64,000 nucleotides of DNA from Prostheceraeus crozeri. Its lineage: Eukaryota > Platyhelminthes > Polycladida > Euryleptidae. Below are positions 8,276-58,538 of the stretch, piece after piece; position 1 is the first letter of the stretch, and each line of letters starts with the position of its first letter. The translations under genes and the position numbers were made by a program. The stretch is from positions 310,001-374,000 of the forward strand of contig CAJQUW010005321.1 of the NCBI GenBank assembly GCA_907163375.1, read 5' to 3'. A model generated the notes under the pieces. It did no database searches. It saw nothing but the letters and a program-made list of their open reading frames with translations, and was not told where the DNA came from.

Positions 8276-8491
8276 ATGAAGCAGATGTGTTGCTTGCCAT
8301 GTAATGAGCCGCCAGAGGTGAATGTCGTTGTCACTTGCACTTGCTGCGCCAGCTCTCATAATGAAACCCCTAAGCAATGTGAACACGATCGCAAAACCGC
8401 TAAAGCTAAATGCTGCAGTTGTTGTAAATGTAGAAAGGCAAGAAAACAAAAAGATGAGAAGGAGGAAAAAGAGTCAGCCGTCATCGACTGA
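8276..8491 (+). CDS. Cysteine-rich small protein overlapping the integrase start (71 aa)
   Basis: It has 12 cysteines clustered as CC-x2-C, C-T-C-C and CCSCCKC, then a Lys/Glu-rich tail. The ATG lies one base after the preceding stop, matching the tight packing of neighbours. The end overlaps the likely integrase start (8454) by 38 bases in another frame. The pattern could bind zinc, but I do not recognise a family. The Cys richness could partly be a side effect of the overlapping frame. Confidence 0.4.
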   Translation: MKQMCCLPCNEPPEVNVVVTCTCCASSHNETPKQCEHDRKTAKAKCCSCCKCRKARKQKDEKEEKESAVID

Positions 8492-9542
8492 ACGTTTGAA
8501 GTCAATCTATTATGATGTAAAACATCCGGCAGGATTTGCATCTATCAAGAAATTATCAAAAGCGAGTGGTCTTCCACAATCACAAGTGAAACGATGGTTA
8601 AAGGGTCAGGCTACCTATACACTCCACAAACAAGCGAAAAAGAAGTACCGCACCCGCCATTATATTGTTCATGACATCGATGAACAGTGGCAAGCAGATT
8701 TGTGTGATGTTGCCTCCATTTCAAAACATAACTCGGGCAATAATTTTATTTTAACCGTCATTGATATTTTCTCGCGTTATGCGTGGGCTCAACCTTTAAA
8801 AACTAAAGAAGGGAAAGGAGTAGCAAAAGCATTCCAAACAATTTTTCGAGAAGGTCGCATTCCAAAAAGAATTCAGAGTGATCAAGGAAAAGAGTTTGAA
8901 AATCAGCATGTGACAAGATTATTTGAGAGGCATGACATTGAGTTGTTTAGTGTAAAGAGCGCTTATAAAGCTGCACTCGTTGAACGTTTTAATCGCACAT
9001 TAAAAAATCGCTTGTGGCGACATTTTACTGCCAACTTGACACAAAATTGGACAAAGGTTCTACAAGATACACTCCATGCCTACAATCACTCTATCCATCG
9101 TTCTATTGGACTCAGACCAGTAGATGTAAATGCTGACAATGTAGATAAAGTGCGCGAATCATTCCAACGTAAACGCACTCATGTGAAAAGTGATGTGAAA
9201 ATTGGTGATAAAGTTCGTATCTCAAAAGTGAAAAGTGTTTTTGCTAAAGGGTACCTCCCGAATTGGACAGAGGAGGTATTTACAGTATCAAGGATTAATC
9301 AAAAAGACTCTCCGACCACCTACAAGTTGAAAGATTACGATAATGAAGAAATTGAGGGTAGCTTTTACCGCGATGAGATTGAGGTAGTCACTGAAAGTGA
9401 AACATATTTGGTAGAGAAAATCATTCGATGTAAAAAACGGCAAGGTGAAGAATGGTGTCTTGTTAAATGGACTGGTTATCCTTCAAGTATGAACTCTTGG
9501 ATGCGTCGTGCCGACATCTTTCATCTAAGTGATCGACAGTGA
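8454..9542 (+). CDS. Retroviral-type integrase with C-terminal chromodomain
   Basis: From ATG 8454 the protein is 362 aa. An N-terminal helical region (LPQSQVKRWLKGQ) leads to the rve catalytic core with QADLCD (first Asp), IQSDQGKEF (second Asp) and ALVERFNR (Glu, 33 residues after the second Asp). This is followed by a basic C-terminal domain and a chromodomain (YLVEKIIRCKKRQG, LVKWTGYP, NSWMRR). It would insert the element DNA, and the chromodomain may steer it to methylated histone tails. The frame is open up to an ATG at 8322, but that extension lies over the Cys-rich gene and lacks family features. The integrase is the defining Polinton gene and appears intact. Confidence 0.93.
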   Translation: MRRRKKSQPSSTERLKSIYYDVKHPAGFASIKKLSKASGLPQSQVKRWLKGQATYTLHKQAKKKYRTRHYIVHDIDEQWQADLCDVASISKHNSGNNFILTVIDIFSRYAWAQPLKTKEGKGVAKAFQTIFREGRIPKRIQSDQGKEFENQHVTRLFERHDIELFSVKSAYKAALVERFNRTLKNRLWRHFTANLTQNWTKVLQDTLHAYNHSIHRSIGLRPVDVNADNVDKVRESFQRKRTHVKSDVKIGDKVRISKVKSVFAKGYLPNWTEEVFTVSRINQKDSPTTYKLKDYDNEEIEGSFYRDEIEVVTESETYLVEKIIRCKKRQGEEWCLVKWTGYPSSMNSWMRRADIFHLSDRQ

Positions 9543-16352: not shown

Positions 16353-19300
16353 TTATGCTAAGACGTCTCCTGAATGTGGTAGTGTGAGTTTAATTCTTTT
16401 GGGTGGTGGTATGTTTGTGTCAGGATGTCCATGTGGAAGAGATATGTTGTGTTCTAGCCAGCACCTCTTATCCTCCCATGCTGAAAGCGCCCGTTTCCTA
16501 AAAGTATGAGTTTTGATCTCATGCGACTTAGATTTTAAGATTGTCATATTGACAAACGTTATATTTTTATTTCTATAGGCTTTCCTGAAATTCTTATGTT
16601 TCATGTTAGAGACCAATGATCTTGATATGCCTTTAGCACGCTTAATACTATCGTCGCTATCCTTTAATTTCATACTGTACATTTTTGGACGGAGGAGAAT
16701 CATTTCATCTATTTCCTTCCCTGCTGTCTCATCCTTAAAGCAGCCAAGTTTTGCCTTATTTTTGATGGAGTAGAGTGGGTGATCAGTAGGATAATTTGAT
16801 GTATCAAAATATCTTTCTAAAGATTTTCCTACTTCATTGAAATTTAAATCTTTTTGAGTGGTAATACCTAAGAAGAAACTATCTGTATCACCACCCAACA
16901 AACGAACCCCTTTTACGAGAGGACATGGTTTTAGTATTTTATAAAAGAGTTGGTACATTTCAAGCTTAGAGTAATCTAGTACAGCTTGACCAATATAGAT
17001 GGGCTTGCACAACTCAACTTCAGATTTTATCATTTTAACACCTACAAGGTCCTCATCGATAATGTCTCTATCGATGAATAGAGGTGATGAGACCAATTTC
17101 TTAAATTTTGTAACATCATTGACTAGTTTATAGTTTACACGTTTTCTAACATCCTCCATCGTCTTACCAAATAGACTGTTGTTCTTATACTTATAAAAAT
17201 CTTTTTCAAAATTATTTTGGGCTAGTGCACGTTTCTGGCTGTTACTATCTATGTAGGGTTTTAGGAAGGCTTTCTGTCTAAATTTAATAATGCGGTGAAC
17301 TCTTTTTAAAATCATGCCCATTTCTAAATAAAATTTTAAGATGCTAAAGTGGACTAGATAGTTTTCTTTATCATATTGAGTGAGCAAAAGTTTGCGGCAA
17401 GGCTTATACTTGGGTTGTCCACATGATTCTAAATCTTTATGAAATTGTTTCATAAAGTCGGAAAACATATCTTTACTCACTTCACCTGATTCGGGTGCGA
17501 GTGGAAAATCTACGGTTTTATGTTTAATATTATTTGGATAGATTAGATCTATCTCAAAATAATATCCCCAATCACCTTCATCTGGAATTGCTAGTATGTT
17601 AGAAGGGTTGGAGAGATGCTGAATTTCACTATCATCTAACCAGCTAAACTCAGAGTGAGGGAGTGGTTTGGATAATGAACTACCATACAAATTATTTTGG
17701 TCATAATACTTAAGATGGATATGATCATTACCTACTGTTTCAGATTTTAACCTATGTTTATTTACAAATGTGAGACCACCGCGAATTCCTCGCTCAAATA
17801 AATTATACATCTCTGGATCTTGTAAGAGATGAATGGTCTCACCAGTCATTTTAAAAGCAGACTTAAATGACATGGCTGGTAGACTGACAAAGTGGACGGG
17901 ATCTAACTTATCTTCTTCTAATGCCACTCGTCGAAACTCCTGAAATACATCAGCCAGCAAAAATACATCTAACTTAAGGTAGGCAATCATATATTCACCA
18001 AATGTATGGCAGTCAAATTTTATCCATGCATCTTGTGCATGATCATAATCTTCGGTCTTACATTCTGCACCGCTCAAATCATTTTTAAATTTATCTATGG
18101 GCGGAAGAGAAGTCTCGCCGAGTTTACTAATTGCATCAAAATATGCATATGGAAAGACTCCTTTCCGTGTGATGACTTCATCGGTTAGATTTGGATATTG
18201 TTTCTTAAGATTTTGTGTTAGTGGAAGAGACTTCAGATTTTGTACGAGAGAGGCCAGTGATGCAGTCATAAATTGGTAGGAATCTAAAAATTTTATATCA
18301 AAATAGACCGTCTTATTTTCTTTAGTTTTATCGACAGGCACTTTTGCTGTCATGGCCATAAACTTCTCTCTCGTTTGTGCTATTACATCAAGCTTCCACT
18401 CTTTCATTTGACCTAAACCTCCTTTTATTATCATATGGCTATCGTAGCCCTTGAAATTATGGAAAATGACGGGTAATGTACGCCGTTTCATCCTCAGCGA
18501 AAAATTGCATTTTGAACAGAGTGCGTTTCTAAATTTACCAGTGATGTGATCATGGTCGCGCACTTTCTTAATCTTATCATCGTCAAATGTTTTCCTACAT
18601 TTGGGGCAAACGTTGCAACTATCAAATTTTACTTGATCATCTGCTGTCATATGCAATGATCTGCGATAGAGTTCACCATCATACTTTTGCTGAAATTTTA
18701 CAGCCTGTTTGAGGAATTGTAGGAATTGGTAAATACAATCCTCACCTTGCCAGACGCGCATTTTATTTTTTCTATTTTGGAAATGGTCATGCCATACTTC
18801 ATAGCAGGAAATGGCTGCTGGTCGATGGATGTTATCATCGATATAACATTCGATGTCAGCATAGATGACACGAAGAGGACTTAGTTCATCGCCATTCTCT
18901 CTATATGAAAACTCCTTATCTTTGGGCATGCGTTCCATTTGCAGTTTACCTCGCTTACACCACTCATAATGAGTTTCAAATTTGTTTTTACTCCTAAAGT
19001 TCCGAATGCATCTGTCACAGTAATAAATCTCTGATGAGGTAGAATTTCTTAAGTGGTGGTATAAGCGAGAAATTTTGGGAATGCCGCAGTAGTGCCATTC
19101 CTCACTATCATCCTGTCTTACTAATAAAAGGTTGACAACGTGGTCATAACAACTCGAACGCGAGTTGTAGCGGACACCCTTCAATCCCTTTTCCCAAACA
19201 TGGAGAACTATTTTGATGTTGTTCAATTTTTCAAATTTTTCTATATCTTTAATTTTCATATCTTCACTATTGCAGTCATCAAACTTTAATTCATTCTCCC

Positions 19301-20360
19301 ACTGTTGATACTTACTCTTACGGTATCGGCTATTCTGTACATCATTATAGTGGAGAATGGAGAGGACGGCATACTTAAAACATTGCGATTCGCAATCTAC
19401 AGAAATGACTGCTGCTTTATTTCTTAAATTTTTCGGAAGTTTAAAGGAGCCTCGTCCAGAGTAGTTTTCTAATAAAGTGATTTTAAATAAGGCGGACTCA
19501 ATACCATCAAAAACGAGACCGCTATCGCGCTCGTTAAATTTATCTATGTTTAATTTTAATCCTTGGATATGAAAATTTATCCAAGACTCATAGTCTACAA
19601 CTTCGGTTGCAGGAGAGGAGGGTATGTGAAACTCCAACCTCTCTACTATTTGACCAGTGTGGTGGTCGATTTTTACATATTTTATTTTAAGATAGATGAG
19701 CGCCTTCATCCTAAAATTGTCTAAATTGTTGAAGAGCGCTTCTATCAATGATGAATTTTGATGAAACCATTCCTCAAAGTTAGCAATGGTTTCTGAGGAG
19801 TCCATCTGGTAGTTCCTCACTAAATTATTTATGGACACTTCAGTGAGTCGGATAGAGGAGGTGCTGTTAGTATAACTATCGTCACTGTGTGTATGTTGAA
19901 GTCTGTGCGAAGATAGTTCAAAACGTGTCTCGAAAGACTGAGCGCACAAGTCGCAAGAAAAGGAGACGACGTTAACAGAATCATCCCCACCTTCGGAGTT
20001 TGATGCCGGCTTAGGTCGACAAACACCTCGCTTGATGTGTCGGGTGAGATCCCGCTTCCTCGTGAAGATGTGTCCACAGTCAGCACATTCCCGATCGTTG
20101 CATTCCCGCGACAATGTTGACATGGAGTCGCTGTTGTTATCCGACTCGCTCGAGATGAGACTGGTATCACCTGAAAGAGAAATCATTCTATCATCTCTGT
20201 TCAAGTCTCAGTGTATTGTTACAACCTACCTTGACTCAATAACTCTAAACTTTCCTCGAGAAGGGAGGGTGTTGGTGATGAAGTTGATGCCTGAAATTGA
20301 GGAAGATGCTATTAGCCACACGTTTGAGGGAGATGAGAGGGGAAATTTCAAACTTACCAT
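16353..20360 (-). CDS. Protein-primed family B DNA polymerase with N-terminal zinc fingers, three exons
   Basis: The coding parts are 20360-20358 (ATG alone), 20290-20230 and 20170-16353, giving 1293 aa. Intron 1 is ATG then GTAAGT to TTTCAG (67 bases); intron 2 runs GTAGGT to TTTCAG (59 bases). Both keep the frame and join sensible residues. Approximate domains: C2H2-type fingers at 49-71 and 92-115; a region with CFKYAVLSIL that could be OTU-like (270-390); another finger at 405-426; the exonuclease motifs DIE (460), HNFKGYD (592) and YLKLD (752); an HNH/endonuclease-VII-like segment (CPKC, DHDHITGK) at 542-576. Polymerase motifs are DQNNLYGSS (845), KNNSLFGK (1017), GDTDS (1115) and KMY (1184). 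All catalytic motifs are present. It replicates the element from protein-primed ends. An unspliced Met at 20204 would lie inside intron 2. Confidence 0.92.
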
Positions 20361-21069: not shown

Positions 21070-21271
21070 TAAATGTTTATTTCGTATTATCTTTGCTTTC
21101 ATACTGACTTACTTGAATGGGGCTTTAGTGAATAATTTAACCATGTATACTTTTTCATTTGGAAATAGTAGCACGCTTAGTTTAACTTGCAAATCTTATA
21201 ACATTTCATATGGGTGATAATGGTAGTTGAAATAGTGTTAAATAAAATTTAGATAGCTTACACTTCTGATA

Positions 21272-21386
21272 CAGGGATAGCAATCGACTGCGATCCATGT
21301 GTAAAGAGCTTGTTAGACTACGGAAGAGAGAAGTGTGTTATGTTGCGTGTGGCGCGTGAGTGTCCTCCCTTTCATTCCATTCATCA
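21272..21386. repeat. 115-bp direct repeat, copy 1
   Basis: Nearly identical to 22165-22280 (about two differences plus a one-base length change), starting cagggatagcaatcgactgc. On the minus strand each copy lies downstream of a histone-type stem-loop: this copy follows the 21819 gene. It may be part of a duplicated gene cassette. No coding potential recognised. Confidence 0.85.
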
Positions 21387-21769
21387 ATTCATCTCATTGA
21401 TAGAGACAGGTAGAACTCATGGCTCTCATAACGTATGCAATGGAAAGTTTTAGGCAACCTTCGACAGTTGGCTAAATGTCGCCCTGGCGCGAATGCATAC
21501 TACGTTGAGACAGAGGCAATCACTTGCAAACATGACGCAGAGAGGTTTAACAAGATTGACCATTGCCGAATGTCCCTTGCGGTATACATAGCTACGGGTT
21601 TCACCGCCGCCCTTTACAGGAACGCCCGTCGAAAGGAAGTATTACACCGAACTTCATTTGCAACGTTCAAGTTGACTGATAGCAGATTCAACTTAATGAT
21701 AGTATTCGCCAGTCCGAAGACTGCCCAGGGCAAACCGCGTGGAGGTTCTATCATGTCTTGCCCCATGGT

Positions 21770-21785
21770 GGCCCTTAAGAGAGCC
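21770..21785 (-). terminator. Histone-type 3' stem-loop of the 84-aa gene
   Basis: On the minus strand GGCTCTCTTAAGGGCC, followed directly by ACCA. It fits the replication-dependent histone 3' consensus GGYYYTHHTHARRRCC, with a 6-bp stem (one G-U pair) and 4-base loop. It starts 33 bases after the stop of the 21819-22073 gene. I see no AATAAA in the next 150 bases. Confidence 0.7.
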
Positions 21786-21818
21786 GGTGGTTCGTTCTCG
21801 GGGTGTGAATTAAGTTGA

Positions 21819-22073
21819 CTATTGGCTGGAGTAGTCAAGGGGTATGACGGTTAGGTTCTCATAGACCCTATACCGCCTAAGCCGTGCTGGTGCATCTGGC
21901 ACCTTTCGGATGCGAGTGGTATTCGGAGTCCACACCTCATCCCTCCAAATGATCTTCCTAATCTTCCCCTTCTTCTCATCCTCTTCATCCCACTCGTCGA
22001 GGATGACGAACTCGGGAATGGCGTTGTCTTCATCGATGAAGACGGGAATGCTGTTGGCAGATGTGGCTTCCAT
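21819..22073 (-). CDS. Small acidic protein with TATA promoter and histone-type 3' end (84 aa)
   Basis: It starts MEATSANSIPVFIDEDNAIP, is acidic in the middle (LDEWDEEDEKKGK), then turns basic (RIRKVPDAPARLRRYRVYE). No family recognised; it is not a histone. TATATAAG lies at 22121-22114, about 41 bases before the ATG, and a perfect histone-type stem-loop lies 33 bases after the stop. Short, intronless, TATA-driven and stem-loop-ended is the architecture of replication-dependent histone genes. Together with gene 22401-23539 and the 115-bp repeats it looks like part of a duplicated unit. Confidence 0.6.
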   Translation of the reverse strand: MEATSANSIPVFIDEDNAIPEFVILDEWDEEDEKKGKIRKIIWRDEVWTPNTTRIRKVPDAPARLRRYRVYENLTVIPLDYSSQ

Positions 22074-22113
22074 CGTGACTTGAAATTGAATGAGAAGCGC
22101 TACAATCTTCTGG

Positions 22114-22121
22114 CTTATATA
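22114..22121 (-). promoter_or_regulatory. TATA box of the 84-aa gene
   Basis: TATATAAG on the minus strand, 41 bases upstream of the ATG at 22073, so transcription should start about ten bases before the start codon. The best TATA match in the right arm. Confidence 0.65.
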
Positions 22122-22164
22122 GGGTTTTCAACAATGAATTGCTCAACAGCGAATCAGAATGCTT

Positions 22165-22280
22165 CAGGGATAGCAATCGACTGCGATCCATGTGTAAAGA
22201 GCTTGTTAGACTACGGAAGAGAGAAGTGTGTTATGTTGCGTGTGGCGCGTGAGTGTCCTCCCATTTCATTCCATTCATCA
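22165..22280. repeat. 115-bp direct repeat, copy 2
   Basis: Second copy of 21272-21386. It lies between the stem-loop of the coiled-coil gene and the TATA box of the 84-aa gene. Confidence 0.85.
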
Positions 22281-22355
22281 TTTTTCTTCCCCTCTGCATT
22301 CCATATCCGAGGATATGTGGCGGGCTTGGGACCGCTTTAGCTGCATTAGAAGGTT

Positions 22356-22371
22356 GGCCCTTAAAAGAGCC
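22356..22371 (-). terminator. Histone-type 3' stem-loop of the coiled-coil gene
   Basis: On the minus strand GGCTCTTTTAAGGGCC, an exact match to the histone 3' consensus with UUUA loop, followed by AACC. It starts 29 bases after the stop predicted from the spliced transcript (22403-22401), the same distance class as the other stem-loop. Confidence 0.7.
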
Positions 22372-22400: not shown

Positions 22401-23539
22401 CTACTGCAAACACTCTGAAAGAAAAATAATAGGAGATTAGATGAGCTACAAAAATGATTATGTTGAATAGACTTACTGGGAACCTTCTTTCTGACTTTTC
22501 TGACGACGAAGTCATCAAGATCTCCATTGATGTTCATCGTCATGTGGAGGCAGCGAACTCCATCCCCCTCATAACACAACTGTGTCTCATTTAAGTCGCT
22601 GGAGATTGTAGGGGCATCGCATACGTTATTCTCAAAGAGGGGAAGATGAACTTCATATACTCTCCTTTTTCGACACTTCAAACGCTCATGCAGTCGCTCC
22701 ACTTCACCCGTCAACCTCTTATTAATAACCTTCACCTCCTCCGTCTCCTTCACCACGCTTCGCATCCGCTCTATCTCTTCATCCTTCCTCGACACACTCG
22801 CCTGCAAACTCTCCACCAAACCTGCCTTCCTCATCAACTCGCTCCTTTCCGCCATCCATTCCTTCTTTCTCAAGCTCTCCAACTCTTCCCTCGTTGCCCT
22901 ATACCCCTCAACCTTCACCTTCAGCTCTTCATTCTCCTTCAAAACTTTTCTATTATTACTTTCCAAAGCCATCACACGATCCTTCATTCTCACAAATACC
23001 TCCGTATCATACGCCTCTTGCTGCCGTGGCGATGACGCTGCCATCGGCTTAGCCACTTCCTCCCCCTCCCACTCTTCCTTCAAATCCGCTATGTCCCCAA
23101 ACAAATCTTCCATCACCGCATCCAAATCAACATCATCCTTCTTCTTCATTTTCGCTCTCAACTCAACTTCCTCATTCGAACTCCCATCACTCGAAATCAC
23201 ATCACTCGCATTCCTCACCACTTTCTCCCCAATCACGTCCTGAATCGTTGCCACCGCCTTTCTCACCTCTTCCCTTTCCAACAACTCTCCCTCAAACCAT
23301 GCCTTGAACCCCTTCTCTCCGATGTTCCCACTCTCACACTGCAAATGCGCCTTCATAAATTCCTTCTCATCCCCCATCACACATTTCCGACAAGACACAC
23401 ACAACCTCAACATCACTTTCCTCTCATGGCCCATCGTCCCCTCTTTTTCTTTTAAATGCTTCTTAAGTTCGCTACCTCTGGCAATCTTGCCACAACTGCA
23501 CTTGCCAACTAACATCTTTGCGTTATTCGGTTTTGTCAT
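22401..23539 (-). CDS. Zinc-motif and coiled-coil accessory protein, spliced near the stop (358 aa)
   Basis: Exon 1 is 23539-22477. A donor CCCA/GTAAGTCTATT at 22476 and acceptor TTTTTCTTTCAG ending at 22415 define a 62-base intron; exon 2 adds four codons and TAG (22403-22401). The N-terminus has CSCGKIARGSELKKHL and LCVSCRKCVMG then HLQC, likely zinc-binding. Residues about 180-295 are a long coiled coil (RVMALESNNRKVLKENEEL, LQASVSRKDEEIERMRS). A hydrophilic tail follows. I do not recognise a family. If unspliced the frame would run on with a low-complexity hydrophobic end. A TATA-like CCTATAAAC lies about 45 bases before the ATG. Confidence 0.6.
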
Positions 23540-35859: not shown

Positions 35860-36350
35860 TTTTTAGTTGAAATTAATGAATTTTGAAGTCTTTCTGTGCA
35901 CAAAAATTAATAAACTATGTCAAGATATACTTCGCCGATCTGACTTTATCAATTGAAATAGAAAGAAATCATATGAAAAAATTCAGGAAATCAAATGCCA
36001 AATCATTCGAAATCTCTACAAAATTACAAACTGTCAATATCGATATCTAACAAATATACACATATACCACAGCTCATTGATTGTCGTAGTTCTGTCAGTA
36101 CAACAACAATCAATGAACTTTGGTATATGTGTATATTTGGTAGATGTCGACATTGACATTGATGGTTTGTAATTTTGTACAGAGATTTCAAATGCTAATC
36201 AATTTCCAAAATTTTTACTTAGAACTTTTTTCTATCTCAATTGATGAGACCAGATCGACGAAATATATTTTGACATAATTTATTGACTTTTGTGCGCAGA
36301 AAGACTGAAGATTAATAATATTTCATTGATTTCAACTAAAAGGAAAATGA
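35860..36350. mobile_element. Older foldback element (about 490 bp)
   Basis: The two halves are inverted copies meeting near 36095. For example caaatatacacatatacca (36050) mirrors tggtatatgtgtatattt (36121), and ctttctgtgcacaaaa (35892) mirrors ttttgtgcgcagaaag (36290). The arms are visibly diverged, so older than the 37.8-kb hairpin. Confidence 0.75.
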
Positions 36351-37640: not shown

Positions 37641-37997
37641 CCCATGAAGTGCGACACGGGTGCGTCAATCTTGCGATTTTCTTTTCTGCAGTACCGCATT
37701 AATTAGTTCCATTCCCGATTACCGGTATCTATCTTGGCCACAACAACAATGCCGTGACACTATAGTTATGGCGATACATATAATAGCTGCGCTACTGATG
37801 TACACATCCGTTTCTCTGGCTCAAAATATGGCGGGGGATGTGTATGTACATCAGTAGCGCAGCTATTATATGTATCGCCATAACTAGTGTCACGGCATTG
37901 TTGTTGTGGCCCAGATAGATAATCGGGAATGGAACTAATGCGGTACTGCAGAAAGAAAATCGCAAGATTGACGCACCCGAGTCGGCACTTCATGGGT
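37641..37997. mobile_element. Long hairpin MITE (about 357 bp)
   Basis: Arms of about 160-170 bp are almost perfect inverted copies (cccatgaagtgc at the left end, gcacttcatggg at the right), with a loop of about 25 bases around ctggctcaaaatatgg. Young by arm identity. No coding capacity; short frames read the two arms. Confidence 0.85.
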
Positions 37998-39906: not shown

Positions 39907-41722
39907 TTATTTCCCTTTCATGTCCATGTGAAGCTCTAATAAGGTCGATGCGAGATGCTCCAGATCTGGACAACAAAAAGCAGAGCAATGAATTAATTCA
40001 TCCACTTGTCCCCTTATTCTCGTAGCTGCCAATTCTGATAGACGCGCTCTATCCTGTTCCGATCTCTTATCAGCGTATTTGTTTGAGCTAGCAGGTCTTG
40101 CAAGGGCTTCGATCTTGCTCATCAAGCCATTTCCTGAAATACCCGGTACTTCTAATACATCCGAGTCGAGCTCTTCTTTCGTCTCCATGTCCACATCATC
40201 TCCTTCTAGCCTAATTCTCAGCAGTCCATCCTCAGTATTAGAGCTCAATGCGAAAAGCACGGCATCCGCTGTGATGACACTGCAACAGACTGAAAAATCC
40301 ATTTCTATTGACCGCATAACATTTCCATTATCGATGTTGAGGACAACACACAATCGTTTGCGTGTCATCGCAGCCATCCAACGAGGATTCACCCCAACAG
40401 TTGGCAATGCGATCGAAGTTGTGTCCATAGACAAAAGAGTTTCTTCTTTCTCTCCCTCTACAAACTTCCACACAGCCCCTACGCTAGATTTTCCTATCAC
40501 AGTATCCCCAGCCAATGTCCATTCCACTTCTTCCAAACAACCACTATCAACCGTCCCTTTCCATACTGATTTAGGTTGTACTGGACGACTCGATTTCCAG
40601 TTGAACACGATCATCTGCAGGCCACCGACCACTGCTAGTTGTACGTCTCGCGGTCTGAAACGTAGGGATATTGGACAAGCTGTTCCAACTGACCATTCCG
40701 CCAGCTGTTCCCAATGTCCTTCAATTTCTCCAAATAATGATACATTTCCGTCTTTCAGTCCAACTGCCAAATCACAACTAGACGGGGAAAAGTGAATATC
40801 TGTACACTCACCCAGATGGCTGACATTAGAGCATTGTATTAATGACCAATCAGTGGCATGGGACTCGAGACTTCTTCTCCACCATTTTAGACGATGGACA
40901 CTGCGCTTGCTATCGCCCAAAACGAGCGTCTCCCACGTAGCCATGGTGTCTCCAGTGGCGTTCATGGCCAGACAAGTGATCTCAGTGGCACAAGATGAGA
41001 CAGGATGCCTCCAGATATCACTTTTATCTGGAGCTAGTGCCACATAATTCTCACTGGTAACGTCAAGTTCATTCTTACCGCCAATTCCCTTTTCTATCCA
41101 TTGCAGATGACCAGGACGAGATCCTATGACTACCGTATTAACTCGAGGATCCCAAATAATGCTAGGTGAATGAAACGGACATCCCTTTCTGCTTGCTAAA
41201 GTAGGAATACCCCTCAACAACCGTCCTTGTACTTCTTGAGTCAATTCTAAACCAGTGCCGGGTCGCAAGAGAAGAAGAACACGATTGGTAAGTACTAGGA
41301 ACACACAGTCTGAAGCAAGAGCACCGACAGAATGAACAGGTGAACACAGACGAGGAAGAAGTTTACGACGCGTCGAAGAAGCTCCACCGTCAGTAAGATC
41401 CCACTGCACAAGAACGGCCTCGTGACCGCCACTGAAGAGAAATGTTCCTGATGTAGAATAGCTCAGACACTTAATGGCCAAAGCGTGCCAGTGCAAACGA
41501 CGTTGTGCAGCTCCTTTGTCGAGATAACTGCCATCACGCCGTCGTTTACGAGAATGGTCCTTCTTGTTGGGGTTATCATTTTCTTGTTTAGAAGGCTCAG
41601 AGTAGCGCCAAATGCATATTTCACCCGTTGAAAGTCCAGCGGCTACCTCTCTTTGGGATGGATGGAGAGCGACAGTTGTAATTGAGGTTTTGCGCACTAG
41701 GTTAGTCCCATCTATCGCCACA
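39907..41722 (-). CDS. WDR75: WDR75 homologue (U3 snoRNP / SSU processome), terminal coding exon
   Basis: About 605 residues in one frame. An acceptor TTTCGTTACAG ends at 41723, so the Met at 41736 is intronic and the N-terminal part lies in upstream exons not identified here. WD-repeat segments are clear: TTVALHPSQREVAAGLSTGEICIW, RLHWHALAIKCLSY, FLFSGGHEAVLVQWDL and LLPRLCSPVHSV correspond to the conserved mid-region of animal WDR75/Utp17. A less conserved C-terminus follows with an acidic stretch (GDDVDMETKEELDSD). WDR75 sits in the t-UTP/UTPA part of the nucleolar small-subunit processome, needed for pre-rRNA transcription and processing. A 1.8-kb exon holding most of the gene is unusual but plausible. 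Confidence 0.85.
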
Positions 41723-41779
41723 CTGTAACGAAACAAATGGAAAAATTTGAAATGGACCTAGCTCACAAATAATGATATA

Positions 41780-56335: not shown

Positions 56336-58538
56336 CAGAGGCGTCGCTAAGGAAACATCATTGCGGGGGGGGTGTTTGCTAAATTTTACCTGATTTACAA
56401 CTAAGAGCCAAAATTTGCCTGATTATTGCACACACGCATACTCACACACATTCCAACATGTTTCATGTTTATATCCTACAGAAGAGGTACCTGCAGTGTT
56501 GGATTTGAGGGGAGGGAAAGTGGGGAAGTTCCCCTGCACTGCCTCATCTCATCCACGGCACTGGAGATGCACTTCCTTCCCTGAGGGGGAAGAATATTTC
56601 CAGTAGATAGGCTTTACATTGCCTCAACCAGATTGATTGAGCATCAGTTCATTATTTTAGTGAATATGAGCAACATTGACAGGCGCAGGCCTAGATTCAT
56701 CACGATTCTTCATAAGCTAAATTGTCTTATCATCAAAAATTGACCTTTGTTAATAAATAAAACAAAAAAATTCGAGAAGCAGAAAGTGCTGAATGAAATA
56801 ATTAGAAGGTAGCGAAACCATCACAAAAAGAGTGGAATCCAGAATGCTATCTTGATTCTTTCAGGGTCTTGATGACAACACACACAGTATTTTATTCATA
56901 TTAATGTAATAGAACTCTTCACAATCAATAAAATCAAGTTTGGGAACATTGTTTAACTTTCACTCTGTGAATATTGACAGAAGCCGAATTTTGTGAATTC
57001 ATTATAGGTCTAATTACAATAAATTACAGAATGATCATCTGCGGAATGTTTGTGTGGATCTTCACATGCGAGACCTACTATGAATTTCTGATGCACAAGG
57101 GTATCCACGCACCTTATTTGAAGCATTATTTAACCAAATGCGGGTGGCACAAATGCATGCATTGGAGAGTCCCTTTCAAGGATAATATGGGCCTATCTCC
57201 TACTTTTTCCATTTATGGTTCAACTGTTTTCAAAATAATTCGCGGGCTCGTTCTTAGTGCGAGGATGATAGTGGTGCTATATGAATCAATGTCCTCTTTC
57301 TTTTGATCACCCTTTTTCCGGCTTTGGTTGCAGCGTTGACCCAAAAACTTCCCCCTACTGCTATCATGCTCAAATCCAACACTAGGTACCTACCTAATCA
57401 TCTAATCGGTCGGAAATGACGCCTATAAATGAAAAATAATTTAATTGGTGGTTATTTAAGTGGCCAATGAAATGCGATGACGTTAAGTTAATTTGTGCGC
57501 AATTGGATCCCGTAGTATCGACTGTTAAGGAAATTTTCGACGGTGTTTGCATCGAGAAAGTTAACACGTCTGTTGACAATAAACTTCTACGCACAGAGAA
57601 GACGGTGTGCCTTATTCATACCGTGCGCTTTCCGCGGTGCGCGTGTGAATGATCGGTATGAGGAAGGTTTGATGAAATCCACCGTAACGATGACGTCATC
57701 TCCTCAAGGGACAACGCAATAGCCAGAGCTTACGTGGTGAGATCAAGAATGATTTAGACTCGACCAGAAGGAATAATGCTACGACTTAGATATTTCACAC
57801 TGGATGACTAATGAGTATATAGGCAACAAATATCGTATTGATAACTTTCATTGATATTTTTTTCTTTAGTATTTTTATCGATTTTAAATATTTAGTATTT
57901 TTCAGCATTTTAGTTGATATCCAGTGTGAAATATCTAAGTCGTAGCATTATTCCTTCTGGTCGAGTCTAAATCATTTTTGATCTCACCATGTATATCAAT
58001 CAACGGTTAAATATACACTACCCAGCTAGGCAGAATGAGTTGCAGGCGTTTCAGCGTTAGGTGATTCAGTGCCAATATTCACTGGCCACATTATAGGTAA
58101 GGTACTGGAATTACATTTCAATTCCACTTAGATATTTTAAATTTAGCAGAGCTAACTCACATCGCCTTATGTTCCAATTTTTAAGAAAATGCGAGGCGAC
58201 TGTTCCTCCGGCTCGCATATACAGTCATCCCCGGTGCAAGTCGTTTTCAGAGCGCTATGTTTGACCGCTTTCGCGTTACAAATCAATATCATCAACGGCA
58301 ACTAACCATATACTTTCTGGTGTCTAGAAAGGGTGTGAATTTCCCGACATTACGATGTGTTTTTGTGACAAGACGTGTTTTTGTGGCTAAGAACAACGTC
58401 AGTGAATATTGGAGCTGAATCGCCGGCAAACCGGCGGTTTGCCTGAAATTTCTCATTTTACCTGAATCTTTTTATTAATTTCATATTGGGGGGGGGGTGT
58501 TACGGTCCCCCACACCCCCCCCGGTCGCGACGCCTCTG
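56336..58538. mobile_element. Second hAT-type element with 8-bp target duplication
   Basis: Ends CAGAGGCGTCGC and GCGACGCCTCTG are inverted. Both sides carry CTCTTGGG (56328-56335 and 58539-58546). G-runs lie just inside each end (56370, 58485). The 2.2-kb interior has no recognisable transposase and contains a younger hairpin (57738-57990). A non-autonomous hAT element by ends, CAG start and 8-bp duplication. Confidence 0.8.
57738..57990. mobile_element. Hairpin MITE nested in the hAT-type element
   Basis: Inverted arms of about 75 bp (gatttagactcgaccagaag, aatatttcacactggat-type blocks) are almost perfect mirror copies at 57738-57812 and 57915-57990, with a 100-base AT-rich loop. Confidence 0.85.

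Follow-up and report, generated by a model that had tools for sequence, protein, structure and literature searches.

According to two sources, histone mRNAs are the only mRNAs that lack a poly(A) tail (PMC7026596, PMC6303110), and histone pre-mRNA is cut shortly after a stem-loop, 5 nt behind it in mouse and 4 nt in Drosophila, with ACCCA preceding the cut (PMC7026596). HDV-like and twister ribozymes in genomes have been linked to the processing of retroelement 5' ends; in R2 and other LINE retroelements, the role proposed for the HDV-like ribozyme is to process the retroelement RNA at its 5' end (PMC7761336). Type-P1 twister ribozymes have a conserved core with P1-P3 pairing. Twister cleavage falls between a U and an A, and RNA cut by small ribozymes ends in a 2',3'-cyclic phosphate (PMC5408937). 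In the open-licence literature no publication was found that links the histone stem-loop with Polintons, and its titles and abstract openings gave no report of ribozymes at the mRNA ends of Polinton/Maverick elements and no published precedent for a histone stem-loop combined with a self-cleaving ribozyme. Reporter constructs have been engineered in which a ribozyme frees a terminal histone stem-loop.

The locus described here lies in the 2.05 Gb assembly of the flatworm Prostheceraeus crozeri, in a stretch of 64,000 nt that was analyzed as a whole and is referred to as the window (Table 1). The element is Polinton-like. It shares with Polinton/Maverick elements an integrase with a chromodomain and inverted terminal repeats, and, by order, size and motif only, polymerase-, ATPase- and capsid-like ORFs. 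Its capsid-, ATPase- and protease-type ORFs have no Pfam match, and the names capsid, ATPase and polymerase rest on ORF order, size and visible motifs without a family match. A search with the gene 2 protein returned one metagenome protein, 92% identical, and viral contigs searched with the capsid-like protein and two cassette patterns gave no match.

Table 1. Positions of features in the window, and loci elsewhere in the genome that carry the 15-nt loop form or belong to the acidic-gene Polinton family
Feature	Position or loci	Strand	Description
Polinton inverted terminal repeats	arms at ~2.7-4.0 kb and 24.2-25.1 kb
Integrase of the Polinton	8322-9542		Pfam rve + Chromo
Large polymerase-like ORF	16353-20204		candidate protein-primed DNA polymerase B; DTDS motif visible; sole Pfam match Endonuclease_7
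Gene 2	22401..23539	-	Cys-containing coiled-coil protein by eye, 358 aa spliced; stop 22403-22401
Gene 2 predicted intron	22476-22415	-	62 nt, GTAAGT...TTTCAG
Histone-type stem-loop 2	22356..22371	-	GGCTCTTTTAAGGGCC; 29 nt after spliced gene 2 stop
Type-P1 twister ribozyme (predicted)	22286..22352	-	Rfam RF03160, 41.3 bits, E 6.6e-7; starts 3 nt after loop 2
106-nt repeat copy	22160..22265	-	between twister and gene 1 promoter; 97% identical to 21267-21372
Gene 1	21819..22073	-	84-aa protein, no Pfam match; TATATAA at 22121-22115
Histone-type stem-loop 1	21770..21785	-	GGCTCTCTTAAGGGCC; 33 nt after gene 1 stop
HDV-like ribozyme (predicted)	21696..21764	-	Rfam RF02682, 26.8 bits, E 0.039; starts 5 nt after loop 1
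Second 106-nt repeat copy	21267..21372	-	downstream of HDV cassette
ORF with WD40 repeats	39907-41736	-	outside the Polinton
Sub-threshold Rfam miRNA matches	36043-36147, 37774-37875, 57757-57967		36.0-kb match on both strands; probably palindromic repeats
15-nt loop form	L009-L038 (centre), L081:487-591, L155, L156, L157
Acidic-gene Polinton family	L001, L070, L071, L072, L078, L087, L097

The initial annotation had proposed that two accessory genes on the minus strand of this element end in stem-loops of the kind found in replication-dependent histone mRNAs. Both loops fit the histone consensus and are the only two matches of GGYYYTHHTHARRRCC in the window, and the estimate of about 0.05 expected matches agrees with 100 dinucleotide shuffles, which gave a mean of 0.05 and in no case two matches. 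The stop-to-loop distances also hold, that of gene 2 once its 62-nt intron is removed. AATAAA and ATTAAA are absent from the 500 nt after each loop, and neither protein, gene 2 being taken as its unspliced ORF, has a Pfam match at E≤0.001, as expected if neither is a histone. Of the two genes described as TATA-driven, only gene 1 can firmly be called so, with TATATAA 48 nt before its ATG; the one candidate at gene 2, roughly 45 nt upstream, is CCTATAAAC, which falls outside the TATA pattern used. The Rfam Histone3 model recognizes both window loops, at 18.6 and 15.3 bits, without reaching its gathering threshold of 34; these low scores and a U-G pair in the window loops count against the histone-type reading. 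The cut-off appears to be strict for this genome, because four loops of host H3 genes (25.0-31.1 bits) and two of a related Polinton, L086 (32.2 and 31.0 bits), fall below it too. The loop sequence is CTTA in window loop 1 and TTTA in window loop 2.

In their stem-loop consensus, the position of the loop soon after the stop codon, the short tail after the predicted cut, the lack of a nearby poly(A) signal and their resemblance to this host's H3 3' UTRs, the two genes are like replication-dependent histone genes. They differ in being non-histone genes on a mobile element, gene 2 having a predicted intron. That non-histone Polinton genes carry histone-type 3' ends is well supported at the sequence level by covariation, very many copies, the likeness to host H3 3' UTRs and a host SLBP. 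In gene 2 and the homologues inspected a predicted intron lies just before the cassette, and in L006, L080, L085 and L088 it follows the stop codon.

A candidate ribozyme follows each of the two loops. An Rfam scan of the window at gathering thresholds gave no match, and both candidates were detected by a permissive scan of 20.5-24 kb; their scores (Table 1) lie below the gathering thresholds of 67.2 bits for twister and 44 for RF02682, and a second HDV model, RF00094, scored 25.9 against 50. When the window is scanned permissively over its full length (E≤0.5), only the twister of the two is listed. As read directly, the HDV-like fold after loop 1 is complete, with P1 (GGGGCAA/UUGCCCU), P2 (AUGAUAG/CUAUCAU, the pseudoknot), P3 (ACC/GGU, with L3 UCCACGC), P1.1 (CC/GG) and P4 (CAGUC/GACUG). 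The segment GGCGAAU we take to be the J4/2 of HDV, and by the same comparison the C at 21708 within it is presumably the catalytic one. The twister has the conserved core with P1, P2 and P3 pairing, and minimum free energy folding of its region was not unusually stable (z -0.67).

The predicted cut of the HDV-like ribozyme (U21765/G21764) would leave the stem-loop with 5 nt, ACCAU, and that of the twister (U22348/A22347) the stem-loop with 8 nt, AACCUUCU, which exceeds the 4-5 nt of histone mRNAs. The HDV-like fold resembles the ribozymes of R2 and other LINEs in being a nested double pseudoknot on a mobile element, and differs from them in its setting, a DNA transposon whose protein genes it terminates, directly 3' of a histone loop. 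The second candidate resembles known type-P1 twisters in its core, its P1-P3 pairing and its U-A cut site; unlike them it stands behind a histone loop, in a place that it has in common with HDV on homologous genes. Directly after the HDV-like ribozyme, at 21694-21669, lies a hairpin AAGTTG...CAACTT that is also found after the second cassette of the diverged L086.

The loop pattern and an HDV core pattern were counted in the host genome. The loop pattern occurs 18,062 times (9,150 + 8,912) vs. 1,840 (916 + 924) for the reversed pattern used as control, and the HDV core 13,702 times (7,010 + 6,692) vs. none (0 + 0), all genome counts being inflated by near-identical copies. An HDV or twister cassette adjoins 89 of the first 100 loops listed, a sample in contig order that holds many near-copies (loci L081 and L084 are included in the evidence). 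Under the strict pattern HDV follows 77 of these 100 and twister 7; the 5 additions made by eye are an HDV with shorter P1 (1), twister variants (2) and the opposite strand of a GATA-loop HDV cassette (2). The remaining 11 comprise 7 loops at copies of an acidic-protein gene, 2 near-identical loops, one of them in L082, and 2 outside these groups. Conversely, a consensus loop stands at the expected offset in 76 of 88 HDV cores that were selected independently of the loop, namely those of 100 listed that fall within the range of the loop listing, the other 12 being left out. The 12 of these 88 without a consensus loop have an unbroken variant hairpin (7, four of them 15-nt), one or two broken pairs (4) or a lost loop (1, C28).

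A twister search of the host genome gave at least 38 matches at E≤0.001, the best listed at 57.1 bits. In all 30 twister loci cut out, a hairpin stands directly 5' of the ribozyme, mostly a 15-nt form, AGCCTTTAYGAGGCT, then ACCCAT; one pair is broken in L023, L024, L035 and L037. This second loop form (5-bp stem, mostly UUANG loop) precedes both HDV and twister, is the hairpin of many twister relatives and lies outside the histone consensus. Of 26 cassettes, 14 follow an ORF of at least 50 aa whose end lies 22-34 nt from the loop; the distance is 95-219 nt in 5, and in 7, including the spliced gene 2 of the window, the script found no such ORF; AATAAA is absent within 200 nt in 23 of the 26 and present in 3. 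Short proteins of two kinds, beginning MEATS... and MQTPN/METPN/MKTP..., are likewise encoded 5' of cassettes. The HDV cassette was also made into a covariance model and searched in 22 sources; the window copy is found by construction, and weak matches at host H3 loci and at the twister were rejected as cassettes, the fit covering only the loop.

The comparison with host histone genes was made for H3, at 30 loci (L039-L068). The loop is present in 4 of these, in each case as GGCCCTCTTAAGGGCC and with CTTA as in window loop 1, and is preceded by the motif GTGAACG in three genes and GTGAAAG in one; an Rfam scan of these four loci found no ribozyme. GTGAACG followed by the loop occurs 1,331 times in the host genome (648 + 683; likewise inflated by copies) vs. 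once (0 + 1) in the control. By script, which may fail in interrupted copies, 26 of the 30 H3 loci have no stem-loop. In several loop-less H3 loci the 3' UTR is kept as far as about GTGAACGC, with divergence beyond that point; they look like retrocopies of a histone mRNA truncated immediately 5' of the loop. The host has SLBP, judging from two partial matches to its RNA-binding domain, both on the same contig; one scores 52.7 bits, and the other, interrupted by a single in-frame TGA, 32.9 bits. A search for host U7 RNA identified no gene; its best match lay at E 4.92, under a threshold so loose that 12 of 14 control genomes also match.

Two further groups of loop-bearing loci were seen. Another Polinton family, recognized by eye, has a histone loop, mostly GGTCCTCTTAAGGGCC, after its acidic protein gene. 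No Rfam ribozyme was found in the two of its loci scanned (L072 and L078), and a hammerhead tried by eye after the loop does not fit the sequence; this family may use host processing or an unfamiliar ribozyme. The loci L082, L099 and L165 have GTGAACG and a loop GGTYCTTTTAAGGACC. In L082 the loop is beside an ORF that by eye resembles an LTR-element polymerase, and AATAAA follows about 40 nt later, so that loop and poly(A) signal occur together.

Both the loop and the ribozymes are, on the sequence evidence, under selection for structure. In 24 distinct HDV cassettes, 97.8% of the pair cells (loop, P1-P4, pseudoknot and P1.1) are paired vs. at most 50.1% when the pairing is slid, and in the loop stem alone 99.3%; 7 of the 24 have lost pairing at the outer P2 position. 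Five pairs are changed on both sides, two of them in the loop stem and the others in P1, P2 and P4, vs. 1.7 in shuffles (equalled by 1 of 500), and the covariation score was equalled by none of 500 shuffles, a test that is weakened by the relatedness of the cassettes. Further pair types were not above chance in these cassettes (11 vs. 10.6 in shuffles). The twister helices occur with three kinds of strand pairs in P1 (CTTC/GAAG, CTCT/AGAG, CCCA/TGGG), four in P2 (TGCA/TGCA, TGTG/CACA, TGTA/TACA, TGAG/CTCA) and four in P3 (GCGG/CCGC, TCGG/CCGA, GTGG/CCAC, ACGG/CCGT). Nine of the 17 twister helix sets, drawn from 47 cassettes, are fully paired, seven have one or two broken pairs and one (L026:820) was misparsed. 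Downstream of a third gene, in the diverged units L085 and L086, most positions differ between the stop codon and the motif and CCCGAGAACGAACCA is identical; several positions of the loop stem differ with no pair lost, in an alignment whose 3' ribozyme portion contains an artefactual gap.

The two classes of ribozyme have been exchanged on homologous genes. Gene 2 homologues are 24 to 95% identical, and a tree was made with 15 rows picked from the hits, L077 and shorter or repeated pieces being left out. Nine rows have a loop and a twister and six a loop and an HDV ribozyme, at the same place. The tree needs three class changes, at least two of them forced by well-supported branches, with four rows spanning less than half of the columns and long branches present, L085 among them. 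Within the window's own clade, twister is found in the window, L074, L075 and L029, and HDV in L086 and L079. That ribozymes of unrelated fold occupy a single site after the same kind of loop argues that the shared function is the cut.

One could suppose that the ribozymes are off-switches, cutting the mRNA 3' end to lower expression, and that the stem-loop is left over from a captured host histone 3' UTR. The cassettes do resemble host H3 3' UTRs, down to the GTGAACG-like motif and the CTTA loop, and a mammalian 3'-UTR hammerhead ribozyme is on record (PMC7761336). Yet a leftover loop should decay, and here the stem is almost completely paired, with two of its pairs changed on both sides, while 83 of the 88 loops at the listed HDV cores are unbroken. 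The predicted cut falls just outside the loop, where HDV replaces twister, and we consider the off-switch improbable.

Related loci contain tandem units, and the 106-nt repeat copy downstream of the HDV cassette is probably a remnant of a lost array unit. In such arrays, neighbouring ribozymes might free RNA monomers bearing a 5'-OH and a 2',3'-cyclic phosphate, and ligation of these ends would then give circles that code for protein, as happens with retrozymes. This is more improbable still: several units have their own TATA box and ATG, and the histone loop belongs to the ends of linear histone mRNAs, against which stand the tandem cassettes (e.g. every 474-519 nt on contig C8) and the service of small ribozymes to circular RNAs elsewhere (PMC7761336). 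Least credible is that the ribozymes are chance or decayed look-alikes and that host U7 snRNP processes the genes after the stem-loop, for despite Rfam scores under gathering and a related Polinton family that has the loop without a recognized ribozyme, the genome-wide association (89 of the first 100 loops listed) and the helix covariation in both HDV and twister speak against it.

The reading we prefer is that the mRNAs of the two minus-strand genes of the Polinton probably have histone-type 3' ends, generated through ribozyme self-cleavage and not by U7 snRNP. Its basis in the DNA is the stem-loops and ribozyme folds, their narrow spacing, conservation and covariation, and the exchange of ribozyme class; what we infer from these is cleavage in cells, binding of SLBP, an end without poly(A) and, if there is one, the connection with S phase. 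The host polymerase would transcribe the gene through the stem-loop and then the ribozyme, and the HDV-like or twister ribozyme would fold and cut the transcript 4-8 nt after the stem-loop, releasing a capped RNA with a histone-like end and no poly(A) tail. Because this tail-less RNA would end like a histone mRNA, host SLBP could bind and protect it and aid both its export and its translation. A U7-pairing element is probably not needed for gene 1 and gene 2, given that a ribozyme fold occupies the site of U7 snRNP action. The histone end is made by CPSF73 and U7, whereas the Polinton end is predicted to be made by a ribozyme and to carry a 2',3'-cyclic phosphate. Engineered stem-loop/ribozyme reporters follow the same design idea and are man-made; the Polinton would be a natural case. 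SLBP is under cell-cycle control in well-studied animals, which makes the earlier suggestion of expression tied to S phase plausible.

It is possible, and we propose it tentatively, that these genes represent a natural class of non-histone, non-polyadenylated mRNAs, in which interchangeable ribozymes replace the U7 snRNP step in Polintons and a 2',3'-cyclic phosphate blocks trimming and uridylation, allowing SLBP-driven translation without S-phase-limited processing and decay. The boldest part of this proposal is that the predicted cyclic phosphate may slow the trimming and uridylation with which histone mRNA decay starts. If these steps, by which histone mRNAs are destroyed as S phase ends, are blocked in this way, the element would keep SLBP-driven translation and escape both processing and decay that are limited to S phase. 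If true, there would be a second class of tail-less mRNAs besides histone mRNAs, and nature would be seen to form an mRNA 3' end by means of a ribozyme. Thousands of ribozyme copies in one animal genome would also have a concrete job, and SLBP function could be studied in a natural setting where it does not depend on U7 processing.
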